Part shown: one piece after another, positions 8,984 through 30,067 of the stretch | Layout of the letters: each line of letters begins with the position of its first letter | Position numbering within the stretch: position 1 is the first letter of the stretch | Source of the DNA: Brevibacterium album DSM 18261 | Lineage (GTDB): Bacteria; Actinomycetota; Actinomycetes; Actinomycetales; Brevibacteriaceae | Assembly: GCF_000426445.1 (NCBI RefSeq) | Contig: NZ_AUFJ01000012.1 | Location: 124,001-188,000, forward strand | DNA length: 64,000 bases | Reading direction: 5' to 3' | The notes under the pieces: model-generated | The model's database searches: none | What the model was told of the DNA's origin: nothing | Seen by the model: the letters and a program-made list of their open reading frames with translations, nothing else | Translations under genes and position numbers: made by a program

Positions 8984-9056
8984 CGGATTCTTCCTCACTG
9001 TGCGGGGTGGACGGAACTGGTGGCGGGGGTGCTCCCGTGCGAGTGCATCGGGGTGT

Positions 9057-10331
9057 TCAGGACCCCACCAGGAATATGGACAGCGCGGGCACGAAGCTCA
9101 CGATGAGGCCCACCGCGACCAGGAGCCCGAAGCCGGGCAGCACGGCGACGATGGCCTCGCCCGTCCTCACCTTCGCCACCCCCGCGGCGATGAACAGGTT
9201 GACCCCCAGCGGCGGGGTGATGAAGCCGAACGAGAGCACGACGATGATGAGCACGCCGATGTGCACCGGATCGAGGCCTGCCAGGGTGAGGACGGGGACG
9301 AGGATGGGCGCGGTGATGGTGACGGCGGCGATGGTCTCCATGAACGTGCCCAGCAGCAGGAGCAGGAGGTTCACCAGGAGGACGATCACCACCGGATTCT
9401 CCGAGATCGAGGTGAGTGCTGCGACGACGACCTCCGGCGCGTTCTCGATCGTGAGGATCCGGCCGAAGATCGCCGCGGCCGCGACGATGAACATGAGGGC
9501 GCTCGTCGTCAGGGCGGCGTTCACGAAGGTCTCGAGGAGGTCCCGCGGGCGCATCTCGCGGTAGACGAGGACCGCGAGGACGAGTCCGTAGACGACGGCG
9601 ACCACGGCGGCCTCGGTGGGGGTGAAGATGCCGCCGTAGATGCCTCCGAGGATGACGACGGGCAGGAGGAGGCCTCCCTTGGCCCGGTTGAGGGCGCTCA
9701 GGCGCTCCCTCCACGTGGACCTGGCCGTTCCGCGCACCCCGCTCGTCCGAGCGTGCCAGATCGCCCAGCCGATGAGGACGAGTCCCATGAGGATCCCGGG
9801 GAGCACGGCGGCGAGGAACAGGTCTCCGATGCTCGTGCCGGTGACGACGCCGAACACCACGAGCGGGATGGACGGCGGGATGACGACGCCGATCGTGCCG
9901 GCCGCGGCGATGAGGGCGGCGGAGAACGTCCGCGAGTAGCCCACGCGGACCATCTCCGGGATCATGATGCCGCCCACGGCGGCGACGGTGGCCGGTCCGG
10001 AGCCGGAGATGGCGGAGAAGAACATGGCGGTGAGCACCGCGGCGATGCCGACGCCGCCGGGCACGTGGCCCACGAGGGAGTTGGCCGTGTCGAAGAGCCG
10101 CTTGGAGATGCCGCCGCGGCCCATGATGAGGCCGGCGAGGATGAAGAACGGCACCGCCATGATGGGGAACGAGTCGTTCGCCGTCGTGAGGGTCTGCGTG
10201 AGCATCCCCAGGGAGACGCCGGGGGCGAACAGGACGATGACGAGGAGGCTGGAGGCGAGCAGGCCGTAGGCGATGGGCAGGCCGAAGGCGATCGCGACCA
10301 GCAGGGCGATGAGAAGCACGGTGAGCGTCAT
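9057..10331 (-). CDS. dctM: TRAP transporter large permease (DctM)
   Basis: 424 residues, about 12 membrane helices, DctM family. Typical motifs: MAVPFFILAGLIMGRGGIS (about residues 45-63), FFSAISGSGPATVAAVGGIM and GTIGVVIPPSIPLVVFGVVT, and near the C terminus SFGFITPPLGVNLFIAAGVA. It is the sodium-driven transport subunit partnering with the DctQ and DctP genes just upstream (9 bases between DctQ stop and this start). A short 73-base gap separates it from the aldolase. Confidence 0.94.
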   Translation of the reverse strand: MTLTVLLIALLVAIAFGLPIAYGLLASSLLVIVLFAPGVSLGMLTQTLTTANDSFPIMAVPFFILAGLIMGRGGISKRLFDTANSLVGHVPGGVGIAAVLTAMFFSAISGSGPATVAAVGGIMIPEMVRVGYSRTFSAALIAAAGTIGVVIPPSIPLVVFGVVTGTSIGDLFLAAVLPGILMGLVLIGWAIWHARTSGVRGTARSTWRERLSALNRAKGGLLLPVVILGGIYGGIFTPTEAAVVAVVYGLVLAVLVYREMRPRDLLETFVNAALTTSALMFIVAAAAIFGRILTIENAPEVVVAALTSISENPVVIVLLVNLLLLLLGTFMETIAAVTITAPILVPVLTLAGLDPVHIGVLIIVVLSFGFITPPLGVNLFIAAGVAKVRTGEAIVAVLPGFGLLVAVGLIVSFVPALSIFLVGS

Positions 10332-10340
10332 GGCGGATCC

Positions 10341-10874
10341 TCAGCTCTCGCTCGCGTCGGTGGGTGCGGCTGGGGTGCCGGCCTCCCGCGGCGGCCTCCG
10401 CCACAGGAGGACGCTGGCCTGGACGCCGCGCAGGGCCGTGAGCGCCATGCCGACCGGCAGCGCCGCGTAGACGATCCACATGGGCAGGGAGAGCGCGGCC
10501 GAGGTCTGGCCGAGGTCCGCGATCACGAAGGCGATCTCGAAGCCCTTGACCAGGAGCGCGCAGTTGATCGCGAAGGCGAGGACGAGGCAGATCTGCCCGA
10601 GCACCCTCTGCGCCCCCGCGGGCATCCTGTCGGTGAGGATGTCGATGGCGATGTGCTCGCCGCGGACGGTCACCGCGCCCAGGCACAGGAAGATGAGCCA
10701 GATGAAGACGTAGCGGGCGAGCTCCTCGCTCCAGGACAGCGAGCTGCCGAGGACGAAGCGCGAGACGACCTGGACGAAGAGGACCGCGACCATCGTCGCC
10801 ATGAGGCCGGCTCCCAGGATCTCCTCGATCCGGAATCTGCGGGGTCCTGCGTGGGTGTCGGTGCCCCAGCTCAT
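10341..10874 (-). CDS. dctQ: TRAP transporter small permease (DctQ)
   Basis: 177 residues with four hydrophobic helices and the DctQ hallmark SSLSWSEELARYVFIWLIFL near residues 44-63. ATG at 10874 overlaps the stop of the binding-protein gene by four bases (ATGA), indicating translational coupling. It forms the membrane complex with the DctM protein encoded next. The open frame extends far upstream but only as antisense-free shadow of the DctP gene, so that longer reading is not used. Confidence 0.92.
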   Translation of the reverse strand: MSWGTDTHAGPRRFRIEEILGAGLMATMVAVLFVQVVSRFVLGSSLSWSEELARYVFIWLIFLCLGAVTVRGEHIAIDILTDRMPAGAQRVLGQICLVLAFAINCALLVKGFEIAFVIADLGQTSAALSLPMWIVYAALPVGMALTALRGVQASVLLWRRPPREAGTPAAPTDASES

Positions 10875-11941
10875 CGCGCCTCCTCGACTTCTGCCCTGAG
10901 CTCGTCGACCAGCCGGTCGCCGAGCAGCCTGCGGACGAACGGCTCCGCGGCCTCCGTCATCACGGTGCCGAACTCCTCGCGCTGCGCAGCGGAGAGCTCG
11001 GTGACCGTGAGGCCGGCGTCCTCGATGACGCCGAGGGCGGCCTCGTCGTCGACGACGGACTGCTCGCGGCAGTACCGCACGGATTCCGTCCCCGCCTCCT
11101 CGACCATCCGCTGCAGCTCGTCCGGCAGGCCGTCGTAGAACTTCCTGCTGAGGATGAGGGGTGAGGGCGTGTAGACGTGCCGGGAGAGGACGAGCGCCGT
11201 CTGCACCTCGTAGAACTTCTGCGTGACGATGAGGGGCAGGGGGTTCTCCTGCGCGTCGATGGTGCCCTGCTGCAGGCCGGTGTAGACCTCGGTGAATGCC
11301 ATGGGCGTGGCGCTGGCGCCGGTGGCGTTCCAGGCGCGGATCTGCGTGGGGTTCTCCAGGGTGCGCAGCTTGATGCCGCGCATGTCCGAGGGGCCGGTGA
11401 TGTCCTCGCGGTCGGCTGTGAGGTTGCGGAAGCCGTTCTCCCAGTAGCCGAGGCCCTTGAGGCGCACATCGCCGAGGTCGTCCATGATCCTGGTGCCGAG
11501 GGGTCCGTCGAGGACCGCATAGGCGTGCTCGCGGGAGTCGAAGAGATAGGGCAGGTCCCAGATGTTCATCGACGGCGAGAACGCGGCCAGGGGCGAGGAG
11601 GAGGGTGCGGTGAGCTGGAGGTTGTCCAGCTGGATGGCCTCGGTGAGCTCGCGGTCGCCGCCGAACACGCCGTTGGGGAAGATCTTCACCTCGATCCTGC
11701 CCTCGCTGATCTCCTCGAGGTGCTCCTTGAAGCGCACGAAGGAGCGGTGCATGAAGTGGTCGGTGGAGGAGGCATGGGCCGCGACGAGCGTGTGCTCGGC
11801 ATTGCCGGGAGCCGCGACTCCGCATCCCGCCAGCGCCAGGCCGGAGGCGCCCAGCAGGCCCAGCAGCGAGCGCCGGGAGAGTGAGCGGGCGTTCGAGGAG
11901 GGGGCCGGTCGGGGGAATCGCGCGTGGGCGGCTGCAGACAT
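10871..11941 (-). CDS. dctP: TRAP transporter solute-binding protein (DctP), Tat-like lipoprotein
   Basis: 356 residues. The leader carries a twin arginine (SLSRRSLLGLLGASGLALAG) running into a lipobox Cys at about 40, so it may be a Tat-exported lipoprotein. The DctP signature EVYTGLQQGTIDAQENPLPL (about residues 206-225) and the ligand Arg in GIKLRTLENPTQIRAWNATG are clear. First gene of the operon DctP-DctQ-DctM-aldolase-dehydrogenase. The start is 22 bases from a perfect 16-base palindrome, a likely operator of the divergent GntR protein. Family members bind C4-C6 carboxylates or sugar acids. Confidence 0.93.
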   Translation of the reverse strand: MSAAAHARFPRPAPSSNARSLSRRSLLGLLGASGLALAGCGVAAPGNAEHTLVAAHASSTDHFMHRSFVRFKEHLEEISEGRIEVKIFPNGVFGGDRELTEAIQLDNLQLTAPSSSPLAAFSPSMNIWDLPYLFDSREHAYAVLDGPLGTRIMDDLGDVRLKGLGYWENGFRNLTADREDITGPSDMRGIKLRTLENPTQIRAWNATGASATPMAFTEVYTGLQQGTIDAQENPLPLIVTQKFYEVQTALVLSRHVYTPSPLILSRKFYDGLPDELQRMVEEAGTESVRYCREQSVVDDEAALGVIEDAGLTVTELSAAQREEFGTVMTEAAEPFVRRLLGDRLVDELRAEVEEAR

Positions 11942-12187: not shown

Positions 12188-12856
12188 ATGAAGAGGAGCG
12201 GGTCCGGGGTGAAGATCAGGAACGAATCGCTGGGTGATCAGGCGGCACGTGTGCTCCGCCGCCGGATCCTCTCCGGTGAGTGCGAGGGCGGTTCGCTGCT
12301 CATCGAGAAGTCCCTCGCCGAGGAGTTCGGCACCAGCCGCGGTCCGGTGCGCGATGCGCTGGCCCAGCTGGCCGAGGACAGCCTCATCGCCGCCTCCGGC
12401 CGCAGCTTCCGGGTGCTCGAGGTGACGGCCGAGGACATCGAGGAGATCTACGACCTGCGGCACCTGCTGGAGCGCCACGCGATGAGCAGGGCGGCGCGGC
12501 TCTCCCTCGACCTCAGCTCCGCGCACGCGGCGCTCCGGAGGATGCGGGAGGCGGCGGAGCGGGGCGACGGCATCGCCTTCGGCCTTGCCGATGTGGCGTT
12601 CCACAGGAGCTTTCCGGAGGCGAGCGGCCAGCGCCGCATCCTGACGATGTGGCGGCAGTTCGAGCGCAGCCTGGAGACGCTGCTCGAGGTGAATCCGCAT
12701 CCCGCGGACGACCTCCTGCGCGCGGTCGATGTGCACGCCGAGCTGCTGCGCGCCGTCGAGGAGGGGGACCCTGCGTGGGAGGAGCAGCTGCGGGTGCACC
12801 TCGAGGAAGCGCGCGACCGCTTCGCGCTCGGCTACGCCGCGCGGCCGGATGCGTGA
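12188..12856 (+). CDS. GntR-family regulator, FCD/FadR subfamily
   Basis: 222 residues. Winged helix at residues about 10-75 (LGDQAARVLRRRILSGE, then FGTSRGPVRDALAQLAEDSL as recognition helix), followed by an FCD helical domain with the metal-binding pattern DLRHLLERHAM, ADVAFHRSF and VDVHAELLRAVEEGD. Such proteins respond to carboxylate ligands. ATG at 12188 has weak spacing to its Shine-Dalgarno; GTG at 12209, behind AGGAG, is an alternative. Divergent from the DctPQM-aldolase operon with a perfect palindrome between, so it very probably controls that operon. Confidence 0.88.
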   Translation: MKRSGSGVKIRNESLGDQAARVLRRRILSGECEGGSLLIEKSLAEEFGTSRGPVRDALAQLAEDSLIAASGRSFRVLEVTAEDIEEIYDLRHLLERHAMSRAARLSLDLSSAHAALRRMREAAERGDGIAFGLADVAFHRSFPEASGQRRILTMWRQFERSLETLLEVNPHPADDLLRAVDVHAELLRAVEEGDPAWEEQLRVHLEEARDRFALGYAARPDA

Positions 12857-13097: not shown

Positions 13098-13808
13098 GTG
13101 GGCGACGAGCAGATAGTCACGGCTGCTGATTTCGTGCAGGTCCTCGCTGCCACGGGGCGTCCTGTCGACGGGGGCATCCGGGTGGCCCCGGAGCGCGAAC
13201 TCGTCTCCCTCACGAAGCTGAGCCGGCCGCGGATCCGGGAGTACCTCGCGGGCCTGCAGACGGTGGGCCTGCTCAAGCGGGTCCAGGGGTCCGGCACGCT
13301 CCTGCGGGTCCCCGGTGCGGACGACGAGGCCAACGTCTTCACTCTCATGGAGAGGTCCGGGCAGCTTCCGCTCGACGACATCGATGAGTTCCGCGAGATG
13401 CTGGAGATCGGTGTGCTGCCGCAGCTCGCCGGGACCCTGCAGGAGGCGCGGGTCGCAGAGCTCCGCCTGCGGATCGAAGAGATGCACGCCGCCTCGCGCG
13501 CCGGCGATGCGGAGGCGGGGTGCGAGGCGGACCTCGCCTTTCACCGGGCGGTGCTGCGCTGCGCCGGCAACAGGCTGCTCGACTTCATCATCGACAGCCT
13601 CGACGGCACCCTGCGCGCGCACATCCTGGATCGCCGGGTCAGGGCTCTCGCCGCTGAGGCGGAGGCTAACGGCGGTGAGAGGCCCGCTTCGTTCCGGACC
13701 GATGCGGTGCACGAGGAGATCCTCGAGGCGCTGATCTCGGGTGACGACGTCGCCACGGCCCGTGCCGTCCGGCTGCACTTCAGCGTGCACCGCGGCCTCC
13801 TCTCCTGA
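13098..13808 (+). CDS. FadR/GntR-family regulator (FCD domain)
   Basis: 236 residues. N-terminal winged helix is divergent but readable (APERELVSLTKLSRPRIREY with wing VQGSGTLLR, residues about 28-75); the FCD domain has DIDEFREMLEIGVLPQLA, ADLAFHRAVLRCAGNRLL and DAVHEEILEALISGD, giving the Asp/His metal-ligand set. GTG at 13098 follows GAGGGGGAAGC. It precedes, in the same direction, the dehydrogenase-GntP-transketolase operon, whose promoter carries two FadR-type TGGTC-N-GACCA sites; control of that operon is likely. Confidence 0.85.
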   Translation: MGDEQIVTAADFVQVLAATGRPVDGGIRVAPERELVSLTKLSRPRIREYLAGLQTVGLLKRVQGSGTLLRVPGADDEANVFTLMERSGQLPLDDIDEFREMLEIGVLPQLAGTLQEARVAELRLRIEEMHAASRAGDAEAGCEADLAFHRAVLRCAGNRLLDFIIDSLDGTLRAHILDRRVRALAAEAEANGGERPASFRTDAVHEEILEALISGDDVATARAVRLHFSVHRGLLS

Positions 13809-13907
13809 CGCGCGCGGCGCTCGGCCGGGCGCCGCGGCATTCCTCTTCTCCCCGTGCGTCCTCCGGGGGCTCTCTCCTGCCCCGATGGCACTGTGCCGTG
13901 CGGGGAC

Positions 13908-13947
13908 TTGACTCTGATTGATTGGTCAGACCATTATGGGCAGACCA
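13908..13947 (+). promoter_or_regulatory. promoter with two FadR-type operators
   Basis: -35 TTGACT at 13908-13913 and -10 CATTAT at 13932-13937 (18-base spacer). Two operators: TGGTCAGACCA at 13923-13933 (perfect) and TGGGCAGACCA at 13937-13947 (one change), centres 14 bases apart, overlapping the spacer and -10. This matches the TGGTN-N-ACCA consensus of FadR-type GntR repressors. Confidence 0.78.
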
Positions 13948-13991
13948 ATTGCGCATCGCAGTTGTGAGAGGCACGAGTCACCGGAGGAACA

Positions 13992-14876
13992 ATGCCGTTC
14001 ACACCACCACAGACGATCACCTTCATAGGCGTCGGCGCGATCGGCCTGCCGATGGCCCTGCAGCTGAAGGGGGCGGGATTCGAGGTCACCGGGGTCGACC
14101 CGGTCGAGGCGTCGCGTGAGCGCGGAGTCGCCGCAGGACTGGACATGGAGGTGGTCCCGGACTCCGTGCGCACTGCCGACGCGGTCGTGGTCATGGTCGC
14201 CACGCCGGAGCAGCTCGACACGGCGCTCGGCGGCGACGGCGGCGTCATCGCCGCGATGCGGCCGGGCGCGGCCCTCATCGTCATGAGCACGGTGGGCCCA
14301 GAGGCCGTCGTCCGGGCCGCCGAGCAGGCCGCTTCCGCGGGTGTGCGGATTCTCGATGTGCCGGTGACCGGCGGCGTGGCCGGCGCGGAGCGGGGCGCGC
14401 TCACGCTCTTCGCCTCCGGCGAGGCCGCGGTGATCGAGGGGCACAGGCCGGTGCTCGAGTGCTTCGGCCGGGTCGTCGAGGCGGGCGCGCGGATCGGCGA
14501 CGGGCAGGCGTTCAAGGCCGTCAACCAGCTCCTGTGCTCGGTCAACCTCGCCGCTGCTGCCGAGGCCCTCGCCTTCGCACGCGCCCTCGGCCTCGACCCC
14601 GAACAGGTGCTCGCCGCCGTGGAGCAGGGCGCCGGCGGTTCGTGGATGCTCAGCGACAGGGGGCCGCGGATGCTCGAGGGCCCCGAGGCCAGGGTGACGA
14701 GCGCTGTGAGCATCTTCGTCAAGGACGCCGGCCTCGTCGCTGACATCGCGGATGCGCAGGGATTCGACGCGCCCCTCGTGAGAGCCGCGCGTGCGCGCTT
14801 CGATCTGGCGGCAGCTGCGGGGATGGCCCAGCTCGACGACTCCCAGGTCATCCGGACCTACTCGACGGAGGGCTGA
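13992..14876 (+). CDS. beta-hydroxyacid dehydrogenase (3-HIBADH / GarR / LtnD-like)
   Basis: 294 residues of the 6-phosphogluconate-dehydrogenase-like family that includes 3-hydroxyisobutyrate dehydrogenase, tartronate-semialdehyde reductase and L-threonate 2-dehydrogenase. N-terminal GVGAIGLPMALQLKGAGFEV binds NAD(P); the substrate loop reads DVPVTGGVAGAERGALTLF and the catalytic Lys lies in GQAFKAVNQLLCSVNLAAAA (about residue 175). Strong ribosome site GGAGGAACA before ATG 13992. First gene of the operon with GntP permease and split transketolase. Substrate is therefore a small hydroxy acid imported by GntP; I cannot choose among family members. Confidence 0.87.
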   Translation: MPFTPPQTITFIGVGAIGLPMALQLKGAGFEVTGVDPVEASRERGVAAGLDMEVVPDSVRTADAVVVMVATPEQLDTALGGDGGVIAAMRPGAALIVMSTVGPEAVVRAAEQAASAGVRILDVPVTGGVAGAERGALTLFASGEAAVIEGHRPVLECFGRVVEAGARIGDGQAFKAVNQLLCSVNLAAAAEALAFARALGLDPEQVLAAVEQGAGGSWMLSDRGPRMLEGPEARVTSAVSIFVKDAGLVADIADAQGFDAPLVRAARARFDLAAAAGMAQLDDSQVIRTYSTEG

Positions 14877-14880
14877 GCGC

Positions 14881-16278
14881 ATGTCACCGGGCCTCCTCAT
14901 CCTCACCGCCCTCCTGGCGGTCGTGCTCCTGCTGGTGATGGTCATCTGGGTGAAGCTGCCCGCATTCATCGCCCTCCTCATCGTCTCCCTCCTCACCGCC
15001 CTGCTCGCCGGCGTGGGTCCGGCCGAGGTGATCCCGCTCATCATGGAGGGGCTGGGCGGCACGCTCGGCAATGTCGCCCTCCTCGTGGGCCTCGGCGCGA
15101 TGCTGGGCGCCATCGTGGAGAAGACGGGCGGCGCCGAGGTCCTTGCCCAGGCCTTCACCAGGGTGCTCGGCCCCGCGCGTGTGGCGCCGGCACTCGTCAC
15201 GGCGAGCTGCATCATCGCGATCCCGATCTTCTTCGACGTCGCCTTCATCATCCTCATCCCCATCGTCTACAGCTTCGCCAAGGCGGCGGGCATGCGGTCG
15301 CCGCTGGTTCTCGGCCTCCCCCTCGCCCTCATGCTGTTCGTGCACGTGACTGTCCCTCCGCACCCCGGCATCGTGGGCAGCGCGCAGGTCACGGAGGGTG
15401 ACATGGGGCTGATCACCCTCCTCGGCCTCGCGCTCTGCGTGCCCGTCGGCGTCATCGGCTACCTCATCTCCAGGCGGCTGACCCGCGGTGAGTTCGAGAT
15501 GCTTCCCGAGACCGCGAGGAACTACGCGACCTTCGGCACGGGCGCCTCTCCGGTGGCAGGGGAGGAGGGCGGGGACGTCCTCACCCGCACGCATGCGGAG
15601 AAGCGGACGCCCTCGGCGCTCGCCGTCCTCTTCGTCATCCTGCTGCCCGTGCTGATGATCGGCACGGGCACGGTGGGCGGGTCCTTCGCCGCCGAGGGTT
15701 CGGGCGCGGCAGCGGCTCTCGACCTGATCGGAGCTCCGGCGTTCGCACTGCTCGTCGCGTCCGTGGTTGGCCTGCTCCTGCTCGCCCTACCCTGCGGCTA
15801 CGGGGTCGCCCAGATGGGAAGGCTTATGGACGGGGCGCTCGGTCCCGCGGCCATCGTCGTCTTCGTGACGGGAGCCGGCGGTGTGTTCGCGGCCGTGCTC
15901 CGCGAGACCGGCATCGGCGAGGCGATTTCCGACATGTTCTCCGACCTCGGGCTCCCTCTCATCGTCCTGGCCTTCGTGCTGGCCGCCGCGCTGCGCGCGG
16001 CGCAGGGCTCGGCGACCGTCTCCGCGATCACCACGGCAGGACTGCTGGCGGCGCCGATCGCCTCGGGCGACTACACGACCTACCAGATCGCCCTGCTCAA
16101 CCTTGCGATCGGCTGCGGAGCCATCACCCTCTCCCACATCAACGACTCCGGGTTCTGGATCGTCACGCGCTACCTCGGCCTCTCGGTGCTCGACGGGCTC
16201 CGGACCTGGTCCGTCCTGGTGACCGCGCTCGGCCTCATCGGCGGCGCGTTCGTGGGCCTTGCCTGGGTGTTCGCATGA
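14881..16278 (+). CDS. GntP-family gluconate/organic acid permease
   Basis: 465 residues, about 12-14 membrane segments, GntP family. Motifs ASCIIAIPIFFDVAFIILIP (about residue 104) and the closing LSHINDSGFWIVTRYLG are characteristic. Starts at ATG 14881, four bases after the dehydrogenase stop. It shares its family with the permease at 43826. GntP proteins take up gluconate, idonate, serine or glycerate by proton symport; given the neighbours, a small hydroxy or sugar acid is likely. Confidence 0.93.
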   Translation: MSPGLLILTALLAVVLLLVMVIWVKLPAFIALLIVSLLTALLAGVGPAEVIPLIMEGLGGTLGNVALLVGLGAMLGAIVEKTGGAEVLAQAFTRVLGPARVAPALVTASCIIAIPIFFDVAFIILIPIVYSFAKAAGMRSPLVLGLPLALMLFVHVTVPPHPGIVGSAQVTEGDMGLITLLGLALCVPVGVIGYLISRRLTRGEFEMLPETARNYATFGTGASPVAGEEGGDVLTRTHAEKRTPSALAVLFVILLPVLMIGTGTVGGSFAAEGSGAAAALDLIGAPAFALLVASVVGLLLLALPCGYGVAQMGRLMDGALGPAAIVVFVTGAGGVFAAVLRETGIGEAISDMFSDLGLPLIVLAFVLAAALRAAQGSATVSAITTAGLLAAPIASGDYTTYQIALLNLAIGCGAITLSHINDSGFWIVTRYLGLSVLDGLRTWSVLVTALGLIGGAFVGLAWVFA

Positions 16279-16328
16279 GCTCCGGCACCTTCCCCGCAGG
16301 CAACCAACCGAAGGAGGACTGCGAAGGC

Positions 16329-17192
16329 ATGTCCACAGATTCCGCACCGCACGCGATCGATCCGGAGCGCCTGGAGCGCATCCGGGAGGCCGCCTACCGG
16401 ATCCGGCAGAACGCGCTGGTCCAGGCCGAGGTCCAGGGGCAGGGCTACATCGGGCAGGCGCTCGACATCGCCGATGTCCTCGCCGTCCTCTATGCCGATC
16501 AGCTGCGCCTGGAGCCGGCCGACCCGGAGTGGGAGGGCCGTGACCGGTTCTTCCTGTCGATCGGCCACTACGCCCTGGCGCTCTACGCCGCGCTCGCCGA
16601 GGCCAAGGTCCTGCCCGAGGAGGAGCTCGCCACCTATGCCGCGGACGATTCGCGGCTGCCCATGTCCGCCATGCGCACCTACACTCCCGGTGTGGAGATC
16701 TCCGGCGGCTCGCTGGGCCACGGGCTGACGATCGCCAACGGAGCGGCGATGGGTCTCAAGCGCAAGGGATCGGACGCCTTCGTCTACAACCTGCTCTCCG
16801 ACGGCGAGCTCGGTGAGGGCTCCACCTGGGAGGCCGCCGCCGTGGCCGCCCACCACGGGCTGGACAACCTCATCGCGATCGTCGACTTCAACGACCAGCA
16901 GGCCGACGGCAAGTCCACGGACATGCTCTCGATGGAGGACGCGGGCGCCAAATGGGAGGCCTTCGGCTGGTTCGTCCGCCGCTGCGACGGCAATGACATC
17001 GCAGCGGTGCTGGGCTGCCTCGAGGAGCTGCGGACGCTGAGCGATCCCCGCCCGCGCGTGCTCATCGCAGACACGCAGCTGGGCCGCGGCGTGGACTTCC
17101 TTGAGCGGAGGGAGAAGCTGCACTTCATGAAGGTCGCCCCGGAGGAATGGGAGCTGGCACGCAAGGCACTTGAGGAGGACTTCGCACGATGA
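16329..17192 (+). CDS. split transketolase, N-terminal (ThDP-binding) subunit
   Basis: 287 residues equal to the thiamine-diphosphate-binding half of transketolase. Readable motifs are GGSLGHGLTIANGAAMG and LSDGELGEGSTWEAA followed by IVDFNDQQ, the cofactor/Mg site (SDGE rather than GDGE). ATG at 16329 follows AAGGAGG with 11-base spacing; the ATG at 16275, overlapping the GntP stop as ATGA, would add 18 unconserved residues. Its partner subunit follows with a 4-base overlap. Split transketolases act in sugar and apiose-type pathways; here no sugar kinase is encoded nearby. Confidence 0.88.
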   Translation: MSTDSAPHAIDPERLERIREAAYRIRQNALVQAEVQGQGYIGQALDIADVLAVLYADQLRLEPADPEWEGRDRFFLSIGHYALALYAALAEAKVLPEEELATYAADDSRLPMSAMRTYTPGVEISGGSLGHGLTIANGAAMGLKRKGSDAFVYNLLSDGELGEGSTWEAAAVAAHHGLDNLIAIVDFNDQQADGKSTDMLSMEDAGAKWEAFGWFVRRCDGNDIAAVLGCLEELRTLSDPRPRVLIADTQLGRGVDFLERREKLHFMKVAPEEWELARKALEEDFAR

Positions 17193-18187
17193 GCACCCCC
17201 AACACAGACACCGGCTCAGTGGCGCGATCCGGCGCGATGGACGTGTCACTGGCCAAGGAGGGGCAGCGCGCGGTCCAGGCCCCGCTCGGCCACGCTCTGG
17301 TCAGGGCCGCGCAGGACGATGAGCGGATCGTGGGCCTGTCCGCAGACCTCGCGAAGTACACGGATCTGCACATCTTCCGCGATGCCATGCCCGACCGCTT
17401 CTACCAGATCGGCATGGCCGAGCAGGCGCTCATCGGGGCCGCCGCGGGTTTGGCGCAGGAGGGCTTCGTGCCCTTCGCCTCGACATATTCCGTGTTCGCC
17501 ACCCGCAGGGCGTTCGACTTCCTGCTCCTCGATGTGGCCGAACCCGGCCTGAACGTGAACATGGTCTGCGCTCTGCCGGGGCTCACCACCGGGTACGGGC
17601 CCTCCCACCAGGCCACGGAGGACATCGCGATCCTGCGCACAGTGCCGGGACTGACGATCGTGGACCCCTGCGATGCCGTCGACATAGCTCAGGCTGTGCC
17701 TCAGCTCGTCGCCCATGACGGTCCCACCTACACCCGCATCCTGCGGGGGAAGGTGCCCTCCGTGCTTGACGAGTACGACTACGAGTTCGAGCTGGGCCGG
17801 GCGAAGCTGCTGCGGGACGGCGCCGATGTGCTCATCGTGTCCTCGGGGCTGATGACGGAGAACGCGCTGGAGGCGGCGAAGCTCCTCGAGCGCGACCGCA
17901 TCGATGTGGCGGTCCTGCACTCGCCCACGCTCAAGCCCTTCGACTCGGAGACGGTGCTGGCCGAGGTCGCGAAGGACCGGGTGGTCCTCACGGCCGAGAA
18001 CCACGCCGTCATCGGCGGCCTCTTCGACACGGTGGCGCACGAATTGGCTCTGCGGGGTATGGGCAGGCAGGTCACGCCGGTCTCCCTGCCGGATGCGTTC
18101 TTGGACGCGGGCGCCCTGCCGACCCTGTTCGACCGGTACGGGGTGAGCACTGCGAGGCTCGTGGAACAGATCCGCGGGCTGGTCTGA
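17189..18187 (+). CDS. split transketolase, C-terminal subunit
   Basis: 332 residues covering the pyrimidine-binding and C-terminal domains of transketolase. The catalytic Glu lies in QIGMAEQALIGAAAGLAQEG (about residues 72-91), followed by PFASTYSVFATRRAFDFL and the GLTTGYGPSHQATEDIAILR loop. ATG at 17189 overlaps the N-subunit stop by four bases. The two subunits should form a heterotetramer transferring two-carbon ketol units. Last gene of the operon starting at 13992. Confidence 0.9.
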   Translation: MSTPNTDTGSVARSGAMDVSLAKEGQRAVQAPLGHALVRAAQDDERIVGLSADLAKYTDLHIFRDAMPDRFYQIGMAEQALIGAAAGLAQEGFVPFASTYSVFATRRAFDFLLLDVAEPGLNVNMVCALPGLTTGYGPSHQATEDIAILRTVPGLTIVDPCDAVDIAQAVPQLVAHDGPTYTRILRGKVPSVLDEYDYEFELGRAKLLRDGADVLIVSSGLMTENALEAAKLLERDRIDVAVLHSPTLKPFDSETVLAEVAKDRVVLTAENHAVIGGLFDTVAHELALRGMGRQVTPVSLPDAFLDAGALPTLFDRYGVSTARLVEQIRGLV

Positions 18188-18221
18188 GCCGCACCCGCGC
18201 TTTCGCGGCTGGTGCCGACTG

Positions 18222-18274
18222 TGGTCTGCCGTGCCGACGCGGATTCGCCTCGTTCGCGTTCGCACGGCAGACCG
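18222..18274 (+). repeat. dispersed hairpin element, copy 2
   Basis: Stem arms 18219-18241 and 18255-18277 pair at 20 of 23 positions. The sequence matches the reverse complement of 7081-7133 at 47 of 53 positions, loop included. It lies between the convergent ends of the transketolase operon and the HutD-like gene, where it may also act as a bidirectional terminator. Confidence 0.75.
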
Positions 18275-18406
18275 CAGTCTGGAGAGGACTGCGAGGGTGG
18301 GCTCTGCGGCTGCGGCTGCGGCTGCGGCTCTGCGGCTTCCCGGCGGCAGAGGGCCGCGTGGTGACGACAGGGAGGCGGGTGGCTGCGAACGCGATGGGGC
18401 GGAGCG

Positions 18407-19036
18407 TCAGAACCGCAGCACGCGGATTCCTCCGAGCGATTCCGCCGTGCCGTCATGCGGGGAGTCGTCGTCCGGGGCGCCTGCTCCTGGGCCGCTCCGC
18501 TGTCCCGTGCCTTCCTGTCCGCGCACGCCCCGCTCCCGCAGCAGGGTGAAGCGGGGGCCGAGGTCCGAGTCCTCCAGGGTGAGGAGGAAGGAGCCGTCCG
18601 GGCCGGCCGCGCTGTCTTCGGCGGCCTCGGGGGCGCTGTGCTCAGCGGAAGATTCGCCGGTCGCGAACCCTGTCTCCGTCATGAGGTTCACCGCGTGGCA
18701 CGGCCCGGTCAGCTCCACGAGGGAGGTCGCGGCTCCTCCGTCGAAGGCGCACGGGTCGCCGTCCGCGATCTCGTGACGCCGGCCGTCGATGAGGAGCACC
18801 ACGTCGGCTCCCACGGGGCGGAAGACTCGCCGCATGCCCGGCAGCGGCGAGAACTCCGCGGGGCGCTCCAGGGCGGCGATGCTCAGCCGCCAGCGGGGGC
18901 GGCCGGGCGTGAGCGAGGCGGACTCCGCGAGCGAGACGAGTTCGACGGTGGAGCCCGCACCATTGGCCCACGGCACCGGCTGCCTCTCCGCGTGCGAGGC
19001 GAGGGTCTGCAGGGACGATGCTCCGGGGTCGCTCAT
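18407..19036 (-). CDS. HutD-family protein
   Basis: 209 residues of the HutD family (DUF886), a bicupin-like fold linked in other bacteria to histidine-utilisation operons but of unknown biochemical role. Visible signatures: VPWANGAGSTVELVSLAE (about residues 20-37), RWRLSIAALERPAEFSPLPG and the DPCAFDGGAATS turn. ATG at 19036 has no strong ribosome site. The middle (about 135-155) and the C-terminal region carry Ala/Ser/Gly-rich inserts. No histidine genes are nearby; it is divergent from a GntR gene. Role not inferable. Confidence 0.75.
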   Translation of the reverse strand: MSDPGASSLQTLASHAERQPVPWANGAGSTVELVSLAESASLTPGRPRWRLSIAALERPAEFSPLPGMRRVFRPVGADVVLLIDGRRHEIADGDPCAFDGGAATSLVELTGPCHAVNLMTETGFATGESSAEHSAPEAAEDSAAGPDGSFLLTLEDSDLGPRFTLLRERGVRGQEGTGQRSGPGAGAPDDDSPHDGTAESLGGIRVLRF

Positions 19037-19253: not shown

Positions 19254-19934
19254 ATGCCTCGGCCTTCGGTGTACGACCGCATCCGCGAGAAGATCATCCG
19301 CAATGAGATCGCCTCAGGCGAGCGGGTCAGCATCGATGCGCTCGTGCGGGAGCTGGGCGTCTCCCAGACCCCCGTGCGTGAGGCCCTGCAGCATCTCGAA
19401 GGGGACGGGCTCGTCATGCGGGCCCGCGGCCGCGGCTACTCCACGACCCCTCTCCTCGACGAGGATCAGCTGCGCAGGATGTTCGAGGTGCGCCTGCTCA
19501 TCGAGCCCTGGGCTGCGCGCGTCGTCTCCGTGGACCGCGCCTCCAATCCGGGCCGGGGGCTCCTCCGGCTCGTTGCGGTCTTCGCCGCCGAGCACCCGGA
19601 CGTCTGCTCACGCAGCGCGCTCGCCTCCCACGACCTCGAGTTCCACCGGGCGATCCACCGGGCCACCGGCAATGCCTTCCTCATCAGCGCTTATGAGGGT
19701 CTGCATGCGCAGCTTCACCTCTTCCGGCTCTACGCCGAGGATGTCACCAGCGCGGACACGCTGGAGGAGCATCGTGAGGTCGCCGAGGCGATAGCCGCCT
19801 GCGAGGGCGAGCGTGCCCAGGCGCTCATGCGCACGCACCTTGAGCAGTCCCTGGGCCGCTTCCTGCCGACCGTGGGCGGCGAGAGCGACGGCCGGCCGCT
19901 GCCGCCCACCGGCTGCGTCCTGCCCACCATCTGA
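19254..19934 (+). CDS. GntR-family regulator (FCD), sugar-acid block
   Basis: 226 residues. Winged helix: VYDRIREKIIRNEIASGERV then ELGVSQTPVREALQHLEGDG (residues about 6-56); FCD domain with MFEVRLLIEPWAARVV, HDLEFHRAIHRATGN and LEEHREVAEAIAACEGE. ATG at 19254 follows AAGGGGAGACCGC. Closely similar to the regulator at 33108 (SVSQTPVREA helix and MFEVRLL-EPWAAR start of the FCD domain shared), indicating paralogues that bracket the catabolic operon. Likely controls the gene cluster starting at 20128. Confidence 0.88.
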   Translation: MPRPSVYDRIREKIIRNEIASGERVSIDALVRELGVSQTPVREALQHLEGDGLVMRARGRGYSTTPLLDEDQLRRMFEVRLLIEPWAARVVSVDRASNPGRGLLRLVAVFAAEHPDVCSRSALASHDLEFHRAIHRATGNAFLISAYEGLHAQLHLFRLYAEDVTSADTLEEHREVAEAIAACEGERAQALMRTHLEQSLGRFLPTVGGESDGRPLPPTGCVLPTI

Positions 19935-20030
19935 CAGCTCACACGCCCCGCCCTCACTCTCCCGCCGCCCGGAACCGGACACGGGTGTTCCATTGCGCTC
20001 CGCCTCCGGCGGCCCTATCCTTGGCTCAAA

Positions 20031-20056
20031 TATGTAAAAACGTGTTTTGCTATACG
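20031..20056 (+). promoter_or_regulatory. AT-rich inverted repeat upstream of catabolic operon
   Basis: TATGTAAAAACGTGTTTTGC followed by TATACG: arms AAAAC (20037-20041) and GTTTT (20044-20048) around GT, in an AT-rich island within GC-rich DNA. TATACG at 20051 could be a -10 box. Candidate operator for one of the GntR proteins; no matching second copy was found elsewhere. Confidence 0.5.
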
Positions 20057-20127
20057 ATTGTGCCGCTGGATCGCTTCCGGCCGCACCGTCGTGGAGAAGA
20101 CCGAGCCGTGGAGAGGACAGCGCCGTC

Positions 20128-21660
20128 ATGACCGAGAGACTCGGACGCAGCACCCTGCCCCGCCGTGCCCTCATCGGCGCTTCGGCTCCGGCCCGCACGG
20201 GAATCGTCCACCTGGGCCTCGGCAACTTCCACCGCGCCCACGCCGCGGTCCACACCGCTCGTGCGATGGCCGTCGCCGGAGGTGACTGGGGGATCCGCGG
20301 CTTCGCCTTCTCCTCGGGCCGGGTCGTGGAGCCGATGCGCGCCCAGGACCACCTCTACTCGATCCTCCAGCTCACCGAGGACGGTGTGCAGGCCGGAGTG
20401 GTCGACGTCCACCGCGACACCGGGATCGCTGCCGAGGACCCCGCCGCCGTGGTCGCGTCGCTCGCCGATCCCGCCCACCGCATCCTCACCCTCACCATCT
20501 CCGAGCTCGGCTACAGCCGGGACGGGGCCACGGGCCGCCTCGCCGTCGACGACCCCCGCGTCGCCGCGGACCTCCGTCCGGGTGCCGCTCCCTCGACCGG
20601 CATCGCCATGATCGCCCGCGGCCTCGAGGCCCGTGCGGCGAGCGGCGAGCCGTTCACCGTGGTCTCCTGCGACAACCTGCAGTCCAACGGCGCGGCCACG
20701 CGCACAGCGGTCCTCGAGTTCCTGCAGGCGGCCGGCGCCTCCCCGGACGTGCAGGACTACGCGGCCTCGGCGGTGTCCTTCCCCAACACGATGGTCGACC
20801 GGATCGTCCCCGCCACCACTGCCGCGCACTCCCGGCGGGTCGCGGAGCTCCTGGGCGTCGAGGACGCCTGCCCGGTGCCGGCCGAGGACTTCTCCATGTG
20901 GGTCATGGAGGACGATTTCGCCGGCGGGCGCCCTGCCTGGGAGCAGGGCGGTGCCGTCTTCTCCGCGGAGGTCGGTGCCTACGAGATGGTGAAGCTGCGC
21001 CTGCTCAACGCCTCGCACTCCCTCATCGCCTACCTGGGCGTGCTCACCGGCCGCGAGACCATCGCCGAGTCCTGGAATCAGGACTTCGTGCGCGAGGCCG
21101 TCATGGGCGGCATCCGCGCGGACCTCCTGCCCACCTTCGCCCTGCCCTCCGGGTTCGACCTCGAGGCACACCTCGCGCAGCTGTCCCGGCGCTGGGGCAA
21201 CCCCCTCATCGGCCACGCGACCGCGCAGGTCGGCTCGGACGGCTCCTCGAAGCTCGTCCAGCGGCTCACGGACGCGGCCCTGCACTCCCTCGAACGCGGG
21301 GGCATGCCGCACCACCTCGCGCTGTGCGTCGCGGCATGGATCGCCTGCACGGTGCCCCCGGCCGGCTTCGATCCGGGGCCGCTGGCGGAGAGGATCGCCG
21401 AGCCCGCGCGGGAGCGCCTCATAGAGGCCGTGCGCGGAGCGGCGGGAGCCCAGGACCACGCCCGCCGCGTCCTCGACGCGGGCCTCTTCCCTCCGGCGCT
21501 CGCCGGGCGCGAGGACTTCGCCGCCCGCGTCGCAGACCTGCTGGACGTCCTTGTGCGGCACGGAGCCCGCGCCGCTGCAGAGGAGGCGGGGGCGGCTGAG
21601 GGCACCGGGGCTGCCGGAGCCTCGGCCGGTGCCGGAGCAGGAATCGCCGAGGGCGCGTGA
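20128..21660 (+). CDS. mannitol-dehydrogenase-family oxidoreductase (tagaturonate/fructuronate reductase type)
   Basis: 510 residues. N-terminal Rossmann half begins VHLGLGNFHRAHAAVHTARA (about residues 24-43); the catalytic region has EDFSMWVMEDDFAGGRP and KLRLLNASHSLIAYLG, carrying the family Lys, Asn and His. UxaB, UxuB, mannitol and altronate oxidoreductases share this fold; neighbours (UxaA-type dehydratase, KDG kinase, KDPG aldolase) favour tagaturonate to altronate or fructuronate to mannonate. The C terminus has an added Ala/Gly/Glu tail of about 30 residues. ATG 20128 follows GGAGAGGACAG at a long spacing. First gene of the block. Confidence 0.87.
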   Translation: MTERLGRSTLPRRALIGASAPARTGIVHLGLGNFHRAHAAVHTARAMAVAGGDWGIRGFAFSSGRVVEPMRAQDHLYSILQLTEDGVQAGVVDVHRDTGIAAEDPAAVVASLADPAHRILTLTISELGYSRDGATGRLAVDDPRVAADLRPGAAPSTGIAMIARGLEARAASGEPFTVVSCDNLQSNGAATRTAVLEFLQAAGASPDVQDYAASAVSFPNTMVDRIVPATTAAHSRRVAELLGVEDACPVPAEDFSMWVMEDDFAGGRPAWEQGGAVFSAEVGAYEMVKLRLLNASHSLIAYLGVLTGRETIAESWNQDFVREAVMGGIRADLLPTFALPSGFDLEAHLAQLSRRWGNPLIGHATAQVGSDGSSKLVQRLTDAALHSLERGGMPHHLALCVAAWIACTVPPAGFDPGPLAERIAEPARERLIEAVRGAAGAQDHARRVLDAGLFPPALAGREDFAARVADLLDVLVRHGARAAAEEAGAAEGTGAAGASAGAGAGIAEGA

Positions 21661-21822
21661 CCTCCCGCTGCCTCGGCCTGAGACCTGAGCGGCCTCCGCC
21701 GGCCCGCCGCCGGGACACCCACCGCCTGAGACACCACTTGCCCGAGGCGCGACTCGCCCGAGACACGACCCGGGCCGCCCACCCCCGATCCACCCGCATA
21801 AGACCCAGAAGAGAGAGACACG

Positions 21823-22830
21823 ATGCGAGCACTGCGAATCCAGTCCGCCGGCCAGATGGACTGGGAGGACGCGCCGGTTCCGGAGCCCGGCCCGGACCAG
21901 GTGCGCCTGCGCGTGCGCTACGTGGGCATCTGCGGCTCCGACCTGCACTACTTCTTCAACGGCGCGAACGGGGAGAACGTCATCCGCGAACCGCTGATCC
22001 CCGGCCATGAGCTCTCCGCCGAGGTGGACCTGGACCCTTCGGGGCAGCTGGCGCCGGGCACGGCCGTGACCGTGCACCCGGCGCGCTATGGCCGCTCCCA
22101 GCCGGGCCTGGAGGACCGCGGCCACCTGTGGCCCGGGGGCCAGTACCTGGGCAGCGCCTCGAGCACCCCGCACTGCCAGGGCGCCCTCGCGGACCTCCTC
22201 GTGGTGGAGCGGGACATGGTGCGCGTCCTGCCTGAGGGCCTCGGACTGCGCGATGCGGCACTGGCCGAACCCCTCGCGGTGGCCCTCCACGCACTCACCA
22301 TCGCCGGGGAGGTCGCGGGCAGGAAGGTGCTGGTGCTGGGCGCCGGGCCGGTGGGTCTGCTGGCGCTCGCCGCACTGCGGGCGCGGGGCGCGGCCGAGGT
22401 GGCCGTCGGCGACATCCAGGAGTCGGCGCTGGAGCGCGCCCGTGCGCTCGGCGCTGACGAGGTGCTGCACGTCGGCACGGACGAGGTTCCCGCAGACGCC
22501 TACGACGTGGTCCTCGAGTGCTCGGCTGCTCCGGCCTCGCTGAGCCAGGCCGTGCTCTCGGCGCGGCCGGCGGGCACCATCGTGCAGGTGGGCATCCTCC
22601 CGGACGTGCCGCTGGGCGCCAACCTCTCACGCCTGGTCTCCAAGGAGCTGCAGCTGCGCGGGACCTTCCGCTTCGACACGGAGATCGACGACGCCGTGGC
22701 GATGCTCGCCGCGCGCCCGGGGCTCAGCGACGTGATCGTCACCCACGTGCTGCCCGCCGCCGAGGCCCTGAGCGCCTTCGACGTGGCCCGTGACTCCGCG
22801 GTCTCCAGCAAGGTCCTCATCGAACTCTGA
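21823..22830 (+). CDS. zinc-type alcohol dehydrogenase, idonate/galactonate 5-dehydrogenase-like
   Basis: 335 residues, MDR superfamily, closest in layout to L-idonate 5-dehydrogenase (IdnD) and L-galactonate 5-dehydrogenase (LgoD). Catalytic zinc ligands: Cys in YVGICGSDLHYFFNG (about 38) and His-Glu in IPGHELSAEV; EPLAVALHAL provides the third. Cofactor loop is VLGAGPVGLLALAALRARGA. The four structural-zinc cysteines normally between residues about 90-115 are absent, replaced by RYGRSQPGLEDRGHLWPGG. It would oxidise the C5 hydroxyl of an aldonate to a 5-keto acid (for L-galactonate this is D-tagaturonate). ATG 21823 follows GAAGAGAGAGACACG. Confidence 0.85.
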   Translation: MRALRIQSAGQMDWEDAPVPEPGPDQVRLRVRYVGICGSDLHYFFNGANGENVIREPLIPGHELSAEVDLDPSGQLAPGTAVTVHPARYGRSQPGLEDRGHLWPGGQYLGSASSTPHCQGALADLLVVERDMVRVLPEGLGLRDAALAEPLAVALHALTIAGEVAGRKVLVLGAGPVGLLALAALRARGAAEVAVGDIQESALERARALGADEVLHVGTDEVPADAYDVVLECSAAPASLSQAVLSARPAGTIVQVGILPDVPLGANLSRLVSKELQLRGTFRFDTEIDDAVAMLAARPGLSDVIVTHVLPAAEALSAFDVARDSAVSSKVLIEL

Positions 22831-22908
22831 ACTCCGGGGACGAACACGGCTCGTGTGAGCCGGCCCGTTCCTCCCCACCACCTCCCACTCGCAGACAGGA
22901 CGCGAACA

Positions 22909-25719: not shown

Positions 25720-25825
25720 GTCAGTGAGACCCCGCCCCCAGTCCGCCGTCCCACTGCGAGACGGCACGGACGACCACAGCAGATCACCACTTCGCGGATT
25801 CACCGAGGAAACCGGAGGAACAGCA

Positions 25826-28709: not shown

Positions 28710-28710
28710 C

Positions 28711-29991: not shown

Positions 29992-30030
29992 GCATGCCCG
30001 GGCCGATCGCCCCTAGTGTGGAGACCCCAG

Positions 30031-30043
30031 TGCGGAATCCGCA
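30031..30043. promoter_or_regulatory. short palindrome upstream of aldehyde dehydrogenase
   Basis: TGCGGA-A-TCCGCA, 6-base arms around one base, 25 bases before the start of the dehydrogenase gene. Possible operator for a separate promoter in the 76-base gap after dctM; weak evidence. Confidence 0.35.
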
Positions 30044-30067
30044 GACCTCGAACGGAAGGAAGAATCC

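Follow-up and report, generated by a model that had tools for sequence, protein, structure and literature searches.

In Brevibacterium album DSM 18261, the operon described here lies within a 64,000-nucleotide stretch of DNA, the whole of which we call the window. Its open reading frames, strands and coordinates are as an initial annotation of the interval 13992-18187 had placed them, and a GntR/FCD regulator gene lies just outside that interval (Table 1). The dehydrogenase and the permease are spaced by 4 bases, and the ORFs of the two transketolase subunits overlap by 4 bases. Although the longest ORF of the N subunit begins at 16275, its true start is probably at 16329, since GGAGG precedes this alternative start. 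The initial annotation had named a dehydrogenase, a GntP permease and a two-part transketolase, and domain and family models bear out all three. It had also described one regulated operon that contains no kinase, isomerase or aldolase, in agreement with the ORFs that we find from the regulator to the operon end.

Table 1. Genes and predicted regulatory features of the operon (positions in the window)
Feature	Position	Strand	Basis
GntR/FCD-type regulator	13098..13808	+	PF07729 FCD 65.8 bits; GntR HTH 20 bits, below cut-off 27
Predicted sigma-70-like promoter TTGACT-18-CATTAT	13908..13937	+	promoter-like site, predicted
Tandem palindrome TTGGTCAGACCAT + ATGGGCAGACCAA, candidate operator	13922..13948	.	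over promoter spacer and -10
HIBADH-superfamily beta-hydroxyacid dehydrogenase, L-threonate-dehydrogenase-like	13992..14876	+	PF03446 + PF14833
GntP-family permease, YgbN-like	14881..16278	+	PF02447 365 bits
Split transketolase N subunit, TPP pyrophosphate domain	16329..17192	+	PF00456, Transketolase_N alone
Split transketolase C subunit, pyrimidine-binding + C-terminal domains	17189..18187	+	PF02779 Transket_pyr, PF02780 Transketolase_C

The HIBADH-type dehydrogenase scores 227 bits against the L-threonate dehydrogenase model and 160 bits against the tartronate semialdehyde reductase model, while the LtnD equivalog NF043037 has a cut-off of 350 bits. It is 72% identical to the enzyme of B. 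yomogidense, 53% to the operon members of Pantoea piersonii and Klebsiella aerogenes, 34% to E. coli YgbJ, 27% to GarR and 30% to GlxR. In the alignment, the module-linked HIBADHs have SW and DDS at the positions where YgbJ has them, and not the ST/SR and DHS of GarR/GlxR; one of them (locus L113) has DDA in place of DDS. In our own reading these positions would mark a YgbJ-like family. A role as tartronate semialdehyde reductase was set aside on the basis of the family scores and these local motifs. The permease belongs to the GntP family by TIGR00791 (309.5 bits, cut-off 292.75) as well as by PF02447; it reaches 472 bits against PRK09821 (cut-off 524) and is 45% identical to E. coli YgbN.

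The predicted promoter is the sole promoter-like site on both strands of 13780-18420, where 0.2 are expected in shuffled sequences. Relatives of the regulator in B. yomogidense (71% identical) and Brachybacterium (37-38%) adjoin the same split transketolase, and the GntR/FCD protein is probably the repressor of its own operon. Upstream of the dehydrogenase of B. yomogidense (L038), copies of the tandem palindrome are found at 6508 and 6522, and in three Brachybacterium loci (L039, L040, L042) the motif lies between divergent SDR and GntR-transketolase operons. With at most one mismatch, TTGGTCNGACCAA has a single site in the genome, but so does a backward control pattern. Because HIBADH-GntP-transketolase operons and the Brachybacterium SDR/transketolase operons have the same palindrome upstream, the two types of dehydrogenase probably serve one pathway, as far as these sequences indicate.

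The set of dehydrogenase, transporter and split transketolase is conserved across phyla. We counted 107 loci, leaving out a duplicate (L024, of L038) and the distant transketolases L031-L034 and L037, and keeping the identical rows L073/L141 and L085/L155. An SDR or HIBADH dehydrogenase lies within 6 kb of this transketolase in 102 of them, and each of the remaining 5 is cut short of 6 kb on one side or both. Where a HIBADH is present, it is on the transketolase strand (19/19 loci), and an SDR without HIBADH is found in 83/106 loci. P. piersonii and K. aerogenes have operons of HIBADH dehydrogenase, permease and split transketolase with no SDR. One scan gave at least 578 stretches encoding the transketolase family, and the module looks like a widespread nutrient pathway, for which we found no description in the open-access literature searched. 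In the plasmid records examined, the family is annotated simply as transketolase.

TRAP and GntP systems are typical carboxylate carriers. The transporters near the module come from unrelated families: TRAP in 59 of the 107 loci, an MFS resembling galactonate transporters in 21, a different MFS in 10 and GntP in 3, where the TRAP (DctP) count includes the window's own TRAP genes and several matches that are merely 23-31% identical. The TRAP genes of the window have a separate regulator and are probably a different system. All three carboxylate-residue motifs are present in 43/58 TRAP binding proteins, a mixed picture on which we do not rely, and binders of C6 sugar acids are also among the related proteins (PMC11668362).

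Consistent linkage to a kinase or isomerase gene from an established route, such as that for threonate or apiose, would have counted against the initial annotation; among the families searched, there was none. Six families of sugar kinase were tested, and 8/107 loci have a member within 6 kb. These same 8 loci were obtained with a first set of queries (DAK, DUF1537, FGGY, glycerate kinase, PfkB) and a second one (full KdgK, RbsK, the own-genome PfkB and the ROK kinase AlsK), and a hidden linked kinase of these families was rejected on this count. Further kinase matches lie just past 6 kb in L040, L084, L095, L103 and L110, and P. piersonii (L163) has genes for an allose kinase and a ribokinase, which belong to a different cluster, some 5-7 kb upstream of the transketolase. 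One of the 107 loci (L113) has the complete threonate set linked to the module, with LtnD-OtnK-OtnC-OtnI directly before the two transketolase genes and an SDR. TIM-barrel isomerase-like genes are near the module in 18/107 loci. L056 has a D-erythrulose-4-phosphate isomerase that scores just over the cut-off (242.4 bits, cut-off 240). DUF1537 kinases occur somewhere in 14/15 module genomes checked, that of L113 being the linked one, and in the genome of the window a GntP-DUF1537-PdxA locus is present apart from the module. On these grounds plain L-threonate catabolism was rejected: such a role would be partly redundant, and since DUF1537 genes are present elsewhere, the module is probably not the sole tetronate route.

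The transketolase of the module differs from known ones in its pocket residues. All three transketolase domains expected for EC 2.2.1.1, the TPP motif and the catalytic Glu are present; H66 and H261 of the N subunit and E411, F437, H473 and R520 of the C subunit are kept in 106/106 loci with both subunits (TktA numbering). In the same 106 loci, the window included, we found H26Y, H100S, S385Y, H461L and D469Y, with the S385 and H461 columns read from an alignment with bridging sequences; the H461 column is alignment-dependent because of a one-residue gap nearby, and His stands there in no version. Residue 440 is Arg or Tyr depending on the alignment and was not used. At the R358 position, Arg is present in 1/69 readable rows; of the sugar-phosphate pocket (R358, S385, H461, D469, R520), R520 is kept in 106/106 loci. 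Changes at R358, S385 and D469 alone are not distinctive, because distant split transketolases vary there too (Asp at D469 in 0/4, Arg at R358 in 0/3 readable rows, S385 missing in 2/4), whereas H26Y, H100S, Tyr at 385 and H461L are special to this family.

Laboratory changes at S385, H461 and D469 aimed to move transketolase to unphosphorylated substrates (PMC5073344, PMC10787763, PMC12016104). According to these studies, the TktA variant S385Y/D469T/R520Q works on unphosphorylated aldehydes (PMC5073344), the variant H100L+D469T+S385Y uses pyruvate (PMC10787763) and R358I/H461S/R520Q is better on 5-keto-gluconate (PMC12016104). H100 has been implicated in donor binding in a further study (PMC7661550). 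A sugar-phosphate acceptor is disfavoured because the pocket residues are changed in 106/106 loci while the TPP and catalytic residues stay, and on the sequence level the changes argue against such an acceptor. Hence, of the reading given in the initial annotation, the kinase-free regulated operon and the conserved gene set stand, and the transfer of a two-carbon unit onto a sugar phosphate is not supported.

Our tentative proposal, which we rate a little below an even chance, is oxidation of a small dihydroxy acid, possibly of the tetronate type, to an unphosphorylated oxo-acid that the TPP enzyme then splits. GntP would import the acid, most likely a C4-C5 compound such as a threonate- or erythronate-type tetronate or a close analogue, and the dehydrogenase, using NAD(P), would turn it into an oxo-acid ketol that carries no phosphate. 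This ketol would be attacked at its keto group by the two-subunit TPP enzyme and broken at the adjacent C-C bond in a retro-acyloin cleavage. One product would be a small 2-oxo acid, namely glyoxylate in the case of 3-oxo-tetronate as the ketol; the other, a two-carbon unit bound to TPP, may be released or handed to an unphosphorylated acceptor. No kinase would be needed, because in this proposal the products enter central metabolism. A C4 context is suggested by the LtnD-like enzyme with its YgbJ-type motifs, the YgbN-like permease, the threonate set of L113 and the isomerase of L056. Our confidence is reduced by the C6-acid binders among the related binding proteins and by the pocket changes shared with distant split transketolases. 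The unlinked SDRs of the window genome are at best 40% identical to the SDR query from L044 and 35% to that from L038. One of them (C2 711947-712672, L125) shows a mean of 42% and a maximum of 48% identity to 96 module SDRs; a contribution to the pathway is conceivable, as this matches the level between actinobacterial and proteobacterial module SDRs (median 43%), and it may take part.

Alternatively, the substrate could be a 2,3-dihydroxy acid that lacks the terminal hydroxyl, such as 2,3-dihydroxy-2-methylbutanoate or 4-deoxy-tetronate, which would be oxidised to an acetolactate-like acid and cleaved to pyruvate or glyoxylate and an acetaldehyde unit. One type of linked TRAP binding protein has 4oan as closest solved relative (424 and 408 bits), whose density was reportedly modelled as (2S)-2-acetolactate, but that ligand was presumably co-purified. 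The Ser at H100 in all 106 loci would also suit such a methyl ketone: the engineered variants that use pyruvate, which is without that hydroxyl, carry H100L (PMC10787763), and DXS is without this His (PMC7661550). However, the Ser of the module differs from the Phe of DXS and from the engineered Leu, and we regard this version as unlikely. Still, the Ser is easier to reconcile with a donor of the methyl-ketone kind than with 3-oxo-tetronate and its hydroxymethyl ketone, and this counts against the reading that we prefer.

The L-threonate dehydrogenase is the best family model, and a true LtnD would give 2-oxo-tetronate, which the TPP enzyme might decarboxylate to glyceraldehyde or ligate. TPP enzymes of the transketolase superfamily do decarboxylate 2-oxo acids. 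That LtnD is described as giving 2-oxo-tetronate, which is not a ketol donor unless isomerised, counts against our preferred reading; YgbM of E. coli carries the annotation of a putative 2-oxo-tetronate isomerase. The many loci with an SDR and no HIBADH do not fit, and the isomerase-like TIM-barrel genes would be unneeded on a simple decarboxylase route, which makes this quite unlikely.

The initial annotation had suggested that the dehydrogenase yields hydroxypyruvate or a similar ketol, from which the transketolase moves a two-carbon unit onto a sugar phosphate. HIBADH-type enzymes usually oxidise the beta carbon and would convert glycerate to tartronate semialdehyde, and glycerate has a simple kinase route. 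The conserved R520 is in line with sugar-phosphate transfer, but the replacements at S385, H461 and D469 and the near absence of Arg at R358 are not. Hydroxypyruvate is a usual unphosphorylated assay donor and was used for the split enzyme of C. hydrogenoformans (PMC7661550). It may be the donor here, but we found nothing in favour of this, and we consider the reading with transfer onto a sugar phosphate very unlikely. An ordinary split transketolase, or an apulose-4-phosphate transketolase, standing beside the dehydrogenase by chance is highly improbable: among solved structures the C subunit is nearest to 6yaj, and distant split transketolases share some of the changes, but 6yaj keeps the residues changed here (PMC7661550), the dehydrogenase linkage is too constant, and the 107 loci gave one weak FGGY kinase match and no isomerase of the XylA or AraA kind.

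Transketolase has been treated as a sugar-phosphate enzyme, and engineers have worked towards other substrates. It is possible, though less likely than not, that a widespread transketolase-derived family has given up sugar phosphates and cleaves unphosphorylated oxo-acids in a kinase-independent route for small sugar acids, with dehydrogenase (SDR or HIBADH) and transporter interchangeable around a fixed TPP enzyme. If so, this would explain operons that have a sugar-acid dehydrogenase and a transporter but no kinase, and the natural S385Y with the changes at H26, H100 and H461 could mean a missing catabolic enzyme class and a ready catalyst.

Among known systems, the L-threonate pathway LtnD-OtnI-OtnK-OtnC (E. 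coli ygbJKLM and ygbN) shares an LtnD-like dehydrogenase and a YgbN-like GntP with the window, whose operon is without OtnI, OtnK and OtnC and has a TPP enzyme in their place. AptAB (apulose-4-phosphate) and SqwGH (sulfoglycolytic) are two-subunit transketolases recruited to dedicated catabolic operons; their substrates are phosphorylated apulose or sulfofructose, and an isomerase or kinase works alongside them, AptAB being linked to an apiose isomerase and an apulose kinase. Set against these descriptions, the window operon is kinase-free and its phosphate pocket altered, and near the module in 107 loci, searches for XylA-like and AraA-like genes gave no match and that for FGGY kinases gave one (26% identical, on the opposite strand), beside the TIM-barrel isomerase-like genes of 18 loci. 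DXS, to whose model the C subunit scores 168 bits, likewise has no His at the H100 position, but it is a single chain binding glyceraldehyde phosphate, whereas the module enzyme is split into two chains with changed phosphate contacts. The C. hydrogenoformans split transketolase (6yaj/6yak), which among solved structures comes closest to the C subunit (213 bits for 6yaj), has the same domains over two chains, the TPP motif, the catalytic Glu, H66, H261, H473 and R520. In contrast to the module family, it retains the pocket residues at 26, 100, 385, 461 and 469, and it is reported to have His at 100 and none of the engineered R358, S385, D469 or R520 substitutions (PMC7661550). Two engineered variants of the E. 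coli enzyme, S385Y/D469T/R520Q and H100L/D469T/S385Y, are changed at the same positions, S385Y being identical, whereas the natural family adds H26Y and H461L and keeps R520.

Four genes lie in one orientation with short gaps in this interval, coding for a dehydrogenase of the HIBADH superfamily, a GntP permease and the N and C subunits (TKN, TKC) of a split transketolase. The promoter-like sequence ahead of them is unique on both strands of 13780-18420, where 0.2 would be expected, and is overlapped by two palindromes. At no more than one mismatch, TTGGTCNGACCAA is found at one place in the window genome (4.09 Mb assembly), which is no better than chance because its backward control likewise matches once; sites with two or more mismatches, such as the second tandem half, escape this search. 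The weight of the palindromes rests on their tandem layout, their place on the promoter and their conservation. Two further single-mismatch 11-base matches lie inside the window, at 26219 and 50006.

Features of the operon, its upstream region and the adjoining TRAP cluster
Feature	Position	Remark
ORF matching NAD-binding domain	7437-7757	in TRAP cluster 7239-11941
HpcH/GarL-type aldolase-like ORF	8219-8983	in TRAP cluster 7239-11941
FCD-type GntR regulator	13098-13808	upstream of operon
Promoter-like site, TTGACT-18-CATTAT	13908-13937	predicted
Palindrome TTGGTCAGACCAT	13922	overlaps promoter-like site
Palindrome ATGGGCAGACCAA	13936	overlaps promoter-like site
HIBADH-superfamily dehydrogenase	13992-14876	
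GntP permease	14881-16278	
Transketolase N half	16329-17192	
Transketolase C half	17189-18187	

The operon adjoins a TRAP transporter cluster with its own GntR regulator (7239-11941, minus strand, and 12209-12856, plus strand), which appears to be a second acid-catabolism module. A third sugar-acid cluster (19269-32904) holds GntR, fructuronate-reductase-like, idonate-5-dehydrogenase-like and large galactarate-dehydratase-like ORFs, followed by another TRAP system.

Among the 98 sampled genomes nearest to the window genome, seven have a strong TKN match (E ≤3.3e-99), including three of the 56 from the same genus. A scan of genome contigs gave at least 597 pattern matches, at least 578 of them encoding a relative. 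We compared 107 loci, two pairs of which are identical: the window, six others, the best 80 of these relatives (a set skewed in favour of sequences like the window's), and 20 out of 29 positive genomes among 295 in the family of L113, a locus discussed below.

The combination of dehydrogenase, transporter and split transketolase that the initial annotation had singled out proved to be kept across phyla, where the transketolase is constant and the types of dehydrogenase and transporter vary. Using tblastn within 6 kb of the transketolase, we found an SDR in 98 of the 107 loci (defined by similarity to six module SDRs, so that some may be unrelated SDRs), a HIBADH in 19 and at least one of the two in 102. 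The five loci with neither (L041, L047, L051, L108, L151) all belong to the 15 in which one or both flanks fall short of 6 kb. When both subunits are present (106 loci), 83 have SDR only, 15 have both, four have HIBADH only (the window, L045, L084, L103) and four have neither. The HIBADH gene always shares the transketolase strand (19/19) and in 16 loci lies no more than 3 kb away. A TRAP binding protein occurs within 6 kb in 59 of the 107 loci, two MFS types in 21 and 10, and GntP in three. Annotated records of Azospirillum, Pantoea agglomerans, Sinorhizobium and Bradyrhizobium show LysR, SDR, TKN and TKC with TRAP or MFS, while the order LysR-TKN-TKC-NAD(P)-dependent oxidoreductase-MFS is annotated in a plasmid record of Pantoea piersonii and on a conjugative plasmid of Klebsiella aerogenes, with dehydrogenases 53% identical to the window's. 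The K. aerogenes operon, of HIBADH type (L164, 6950-14798), is close to a Tn3-family transposase gene and to a gene annotated "aminoglycoside phosphotransferase family protein".

On a tree of the loci the HIBADH label requires 12 changes, compared with 17-18 in each of the five labelings listed out of 50 shuffled ones, so it is clustered yet has been gained or lost repeatedly. The window's partner on this tree is Brevibacterium yomogidense (support 89), where the HIBADH-GntP-transketolase order recurs with an extra SDR upstream.

The strongest support for HIBADH and SDR serving one pathway is a palindrome and a regulator relative common to both operon types. In three Brachybacterium loci (L039, L040, L042), the TKN-TKC operon is headed by a regulator 37-38% identical to the window's; an SDR-isomerase-TRAP operon runs divergently from it, with TGGTC(A/T)GACCA in the space between the two. 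Single-mismatch matches are absent from loci with other regulators (L025, L041, L043, L044, L088), two of which (L025, L088) have two-mismatch matches; L026 has one single-mismatch match, off the operon. The window operon has no SDR inside. An unlinked SDR on contig C2 of the same genome (711947-712672) has a mean identity of 42% to module SDRs, on a par with the similarity that module SDRs of different phyla show among themselves, and might be its partner.

Linked kinases are rare. Within 6 kb, any tested kinase was found in eight of the 107 loci, in four of them on the same strand and no more than 3 kb away: DAK kinase in five, DUF1537 in two (one 26% identical) and FGGY in one (26% identical); no glycerate kinase, PfkB or ROK kinase turned up. 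Genes resembling TIM-barrel isomerases are present in 18/107. Three exceptions indicate four-carbon chemistry: L113 (5410-11587) carries a complete threonate set, LtnD-OtnK-OtnC-OtnI, directly 5' of TKN-TKC-SDR on one strand; L029 (1962-10693) is a kinase-bearing variant, TRAP-SDR-TIM barrel-DAK-RpiB-TKN-TKC on one strand, whose gene set hints at erythrulose as product; and an isomerase in L056 scores just over the D-erythrulose-4-phosphate isomerase cut-off.

The window dehydrogenase is LtnD-like, scoring below the LtnD equivalog cut-off, and has SW and DDS as in YgbJ, where GarR and GlxR carry ST/SR and DHS; the permease shares 45% identity with YgbN. For one type of linked TRAP binding protein the closest solved structure is 4oan, reportedly modelled with acetolactate, and 4p47, 4pfr, 7bbr, 4n8y and 4x8r are among the structure matches. 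PMC11668362 describes a set of solved homologues, their ligands mostly co-purified: several hold pantoate or erythronate, three are C6 sugar acid binders (7BBR, 4N8Y, 4X8R), two have open structures, and others differ. Enzyme, permease and TRAP ligands together point to a small dihydroxy acid as the putative substrate, C4-C5 being more likely than C6. The window genome has a separate GntP-DUF1537-PdxA locus, which we take to resemble the D-threonate route; this suggests that the operon handles another acid or isomer.

In the pocket of the split transketolase family (E. coli TktA numbering), H26Y and H100S, as well as S385Y, H461L and D469Y along with the deletion of one residue, occur in 106/106 loci, and Arg at R358 in one of 69 readable rows, while H66, H261, E411, F437, H473 and R520 are retained. 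In engineered E. coli transketolase, S385Y/D469T/R520Q ends a walk from phosphorylated through unphosphorylated to aromatic acceptors (PMC5073344), S385Y added to H100L/D469T allows pyruvate to be converted well with an aromatic aldehyde that bears a carboxylate, docked towards R520 (PMC10787763), and R358I/H461S/R520Q improves use of 5-keto-gluconate (PMC12016104). Judged from these residues, the split family most likely acts on unphosphorylated, probably carboxylated, substrates. Wild-type transketolase accepts some unphosphorylated aldehydes too.

The acid would be imported and oxidised in an NAD(P)-linked step to an alpha-hydroxy-beta-keto acid, whose keto group TPP would attack; C-C cleavage would yield a two-carbon unit, set free or passed to a small unphosphorylated acceptor, together with glyoxylate, or with pyruvate if the substrate is 2-methylated. 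In loci bearing DAK and RpiB, erythrulose could be the product. Two observations sit poorly with this mechanism: with Ser at position 100, a methyl ketone would fit more easily than a hydroxymethyl one, and oxidation by LtnD is believed to take place at C2.

In the open-access literature, where apulose-4-phosphate transketolase was also unmatched, we found no description of the module; the subscription literature may hold one. PMC3333776 places two transketolases of R. leguminosarum, RL2718-19, in an arabinogalactan-induced cluster, and they may or may not belong to the split family. A full-length second transketolase lies up to about 8 kb from the module in 20 loci (e.g. L052 14818-16812, L091 13176-15152), with S385P and D469N in 19/20, Arg at 358 missing in 19/20, and the six catalytic His residues H26, H66, H100, H261, H461 and H473 retained in 20/20; it is perhaps another phosphate-independent enzyme. 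A different split pair (L034, 8927-10839 on contig C6 of the window genome; its N subunit shares 37% identity with that of the window) has, judged by eye, aminotransferase-like and peptide-type ABC transporter-like neighbours. In four distant split transketolases, H26 and H100 (4/4) and mostly H461 (3/4), all three replaced in the split family, are unchanged, but Ser is found at S385 in just 2/4 and Asp at D469 in 0/4.
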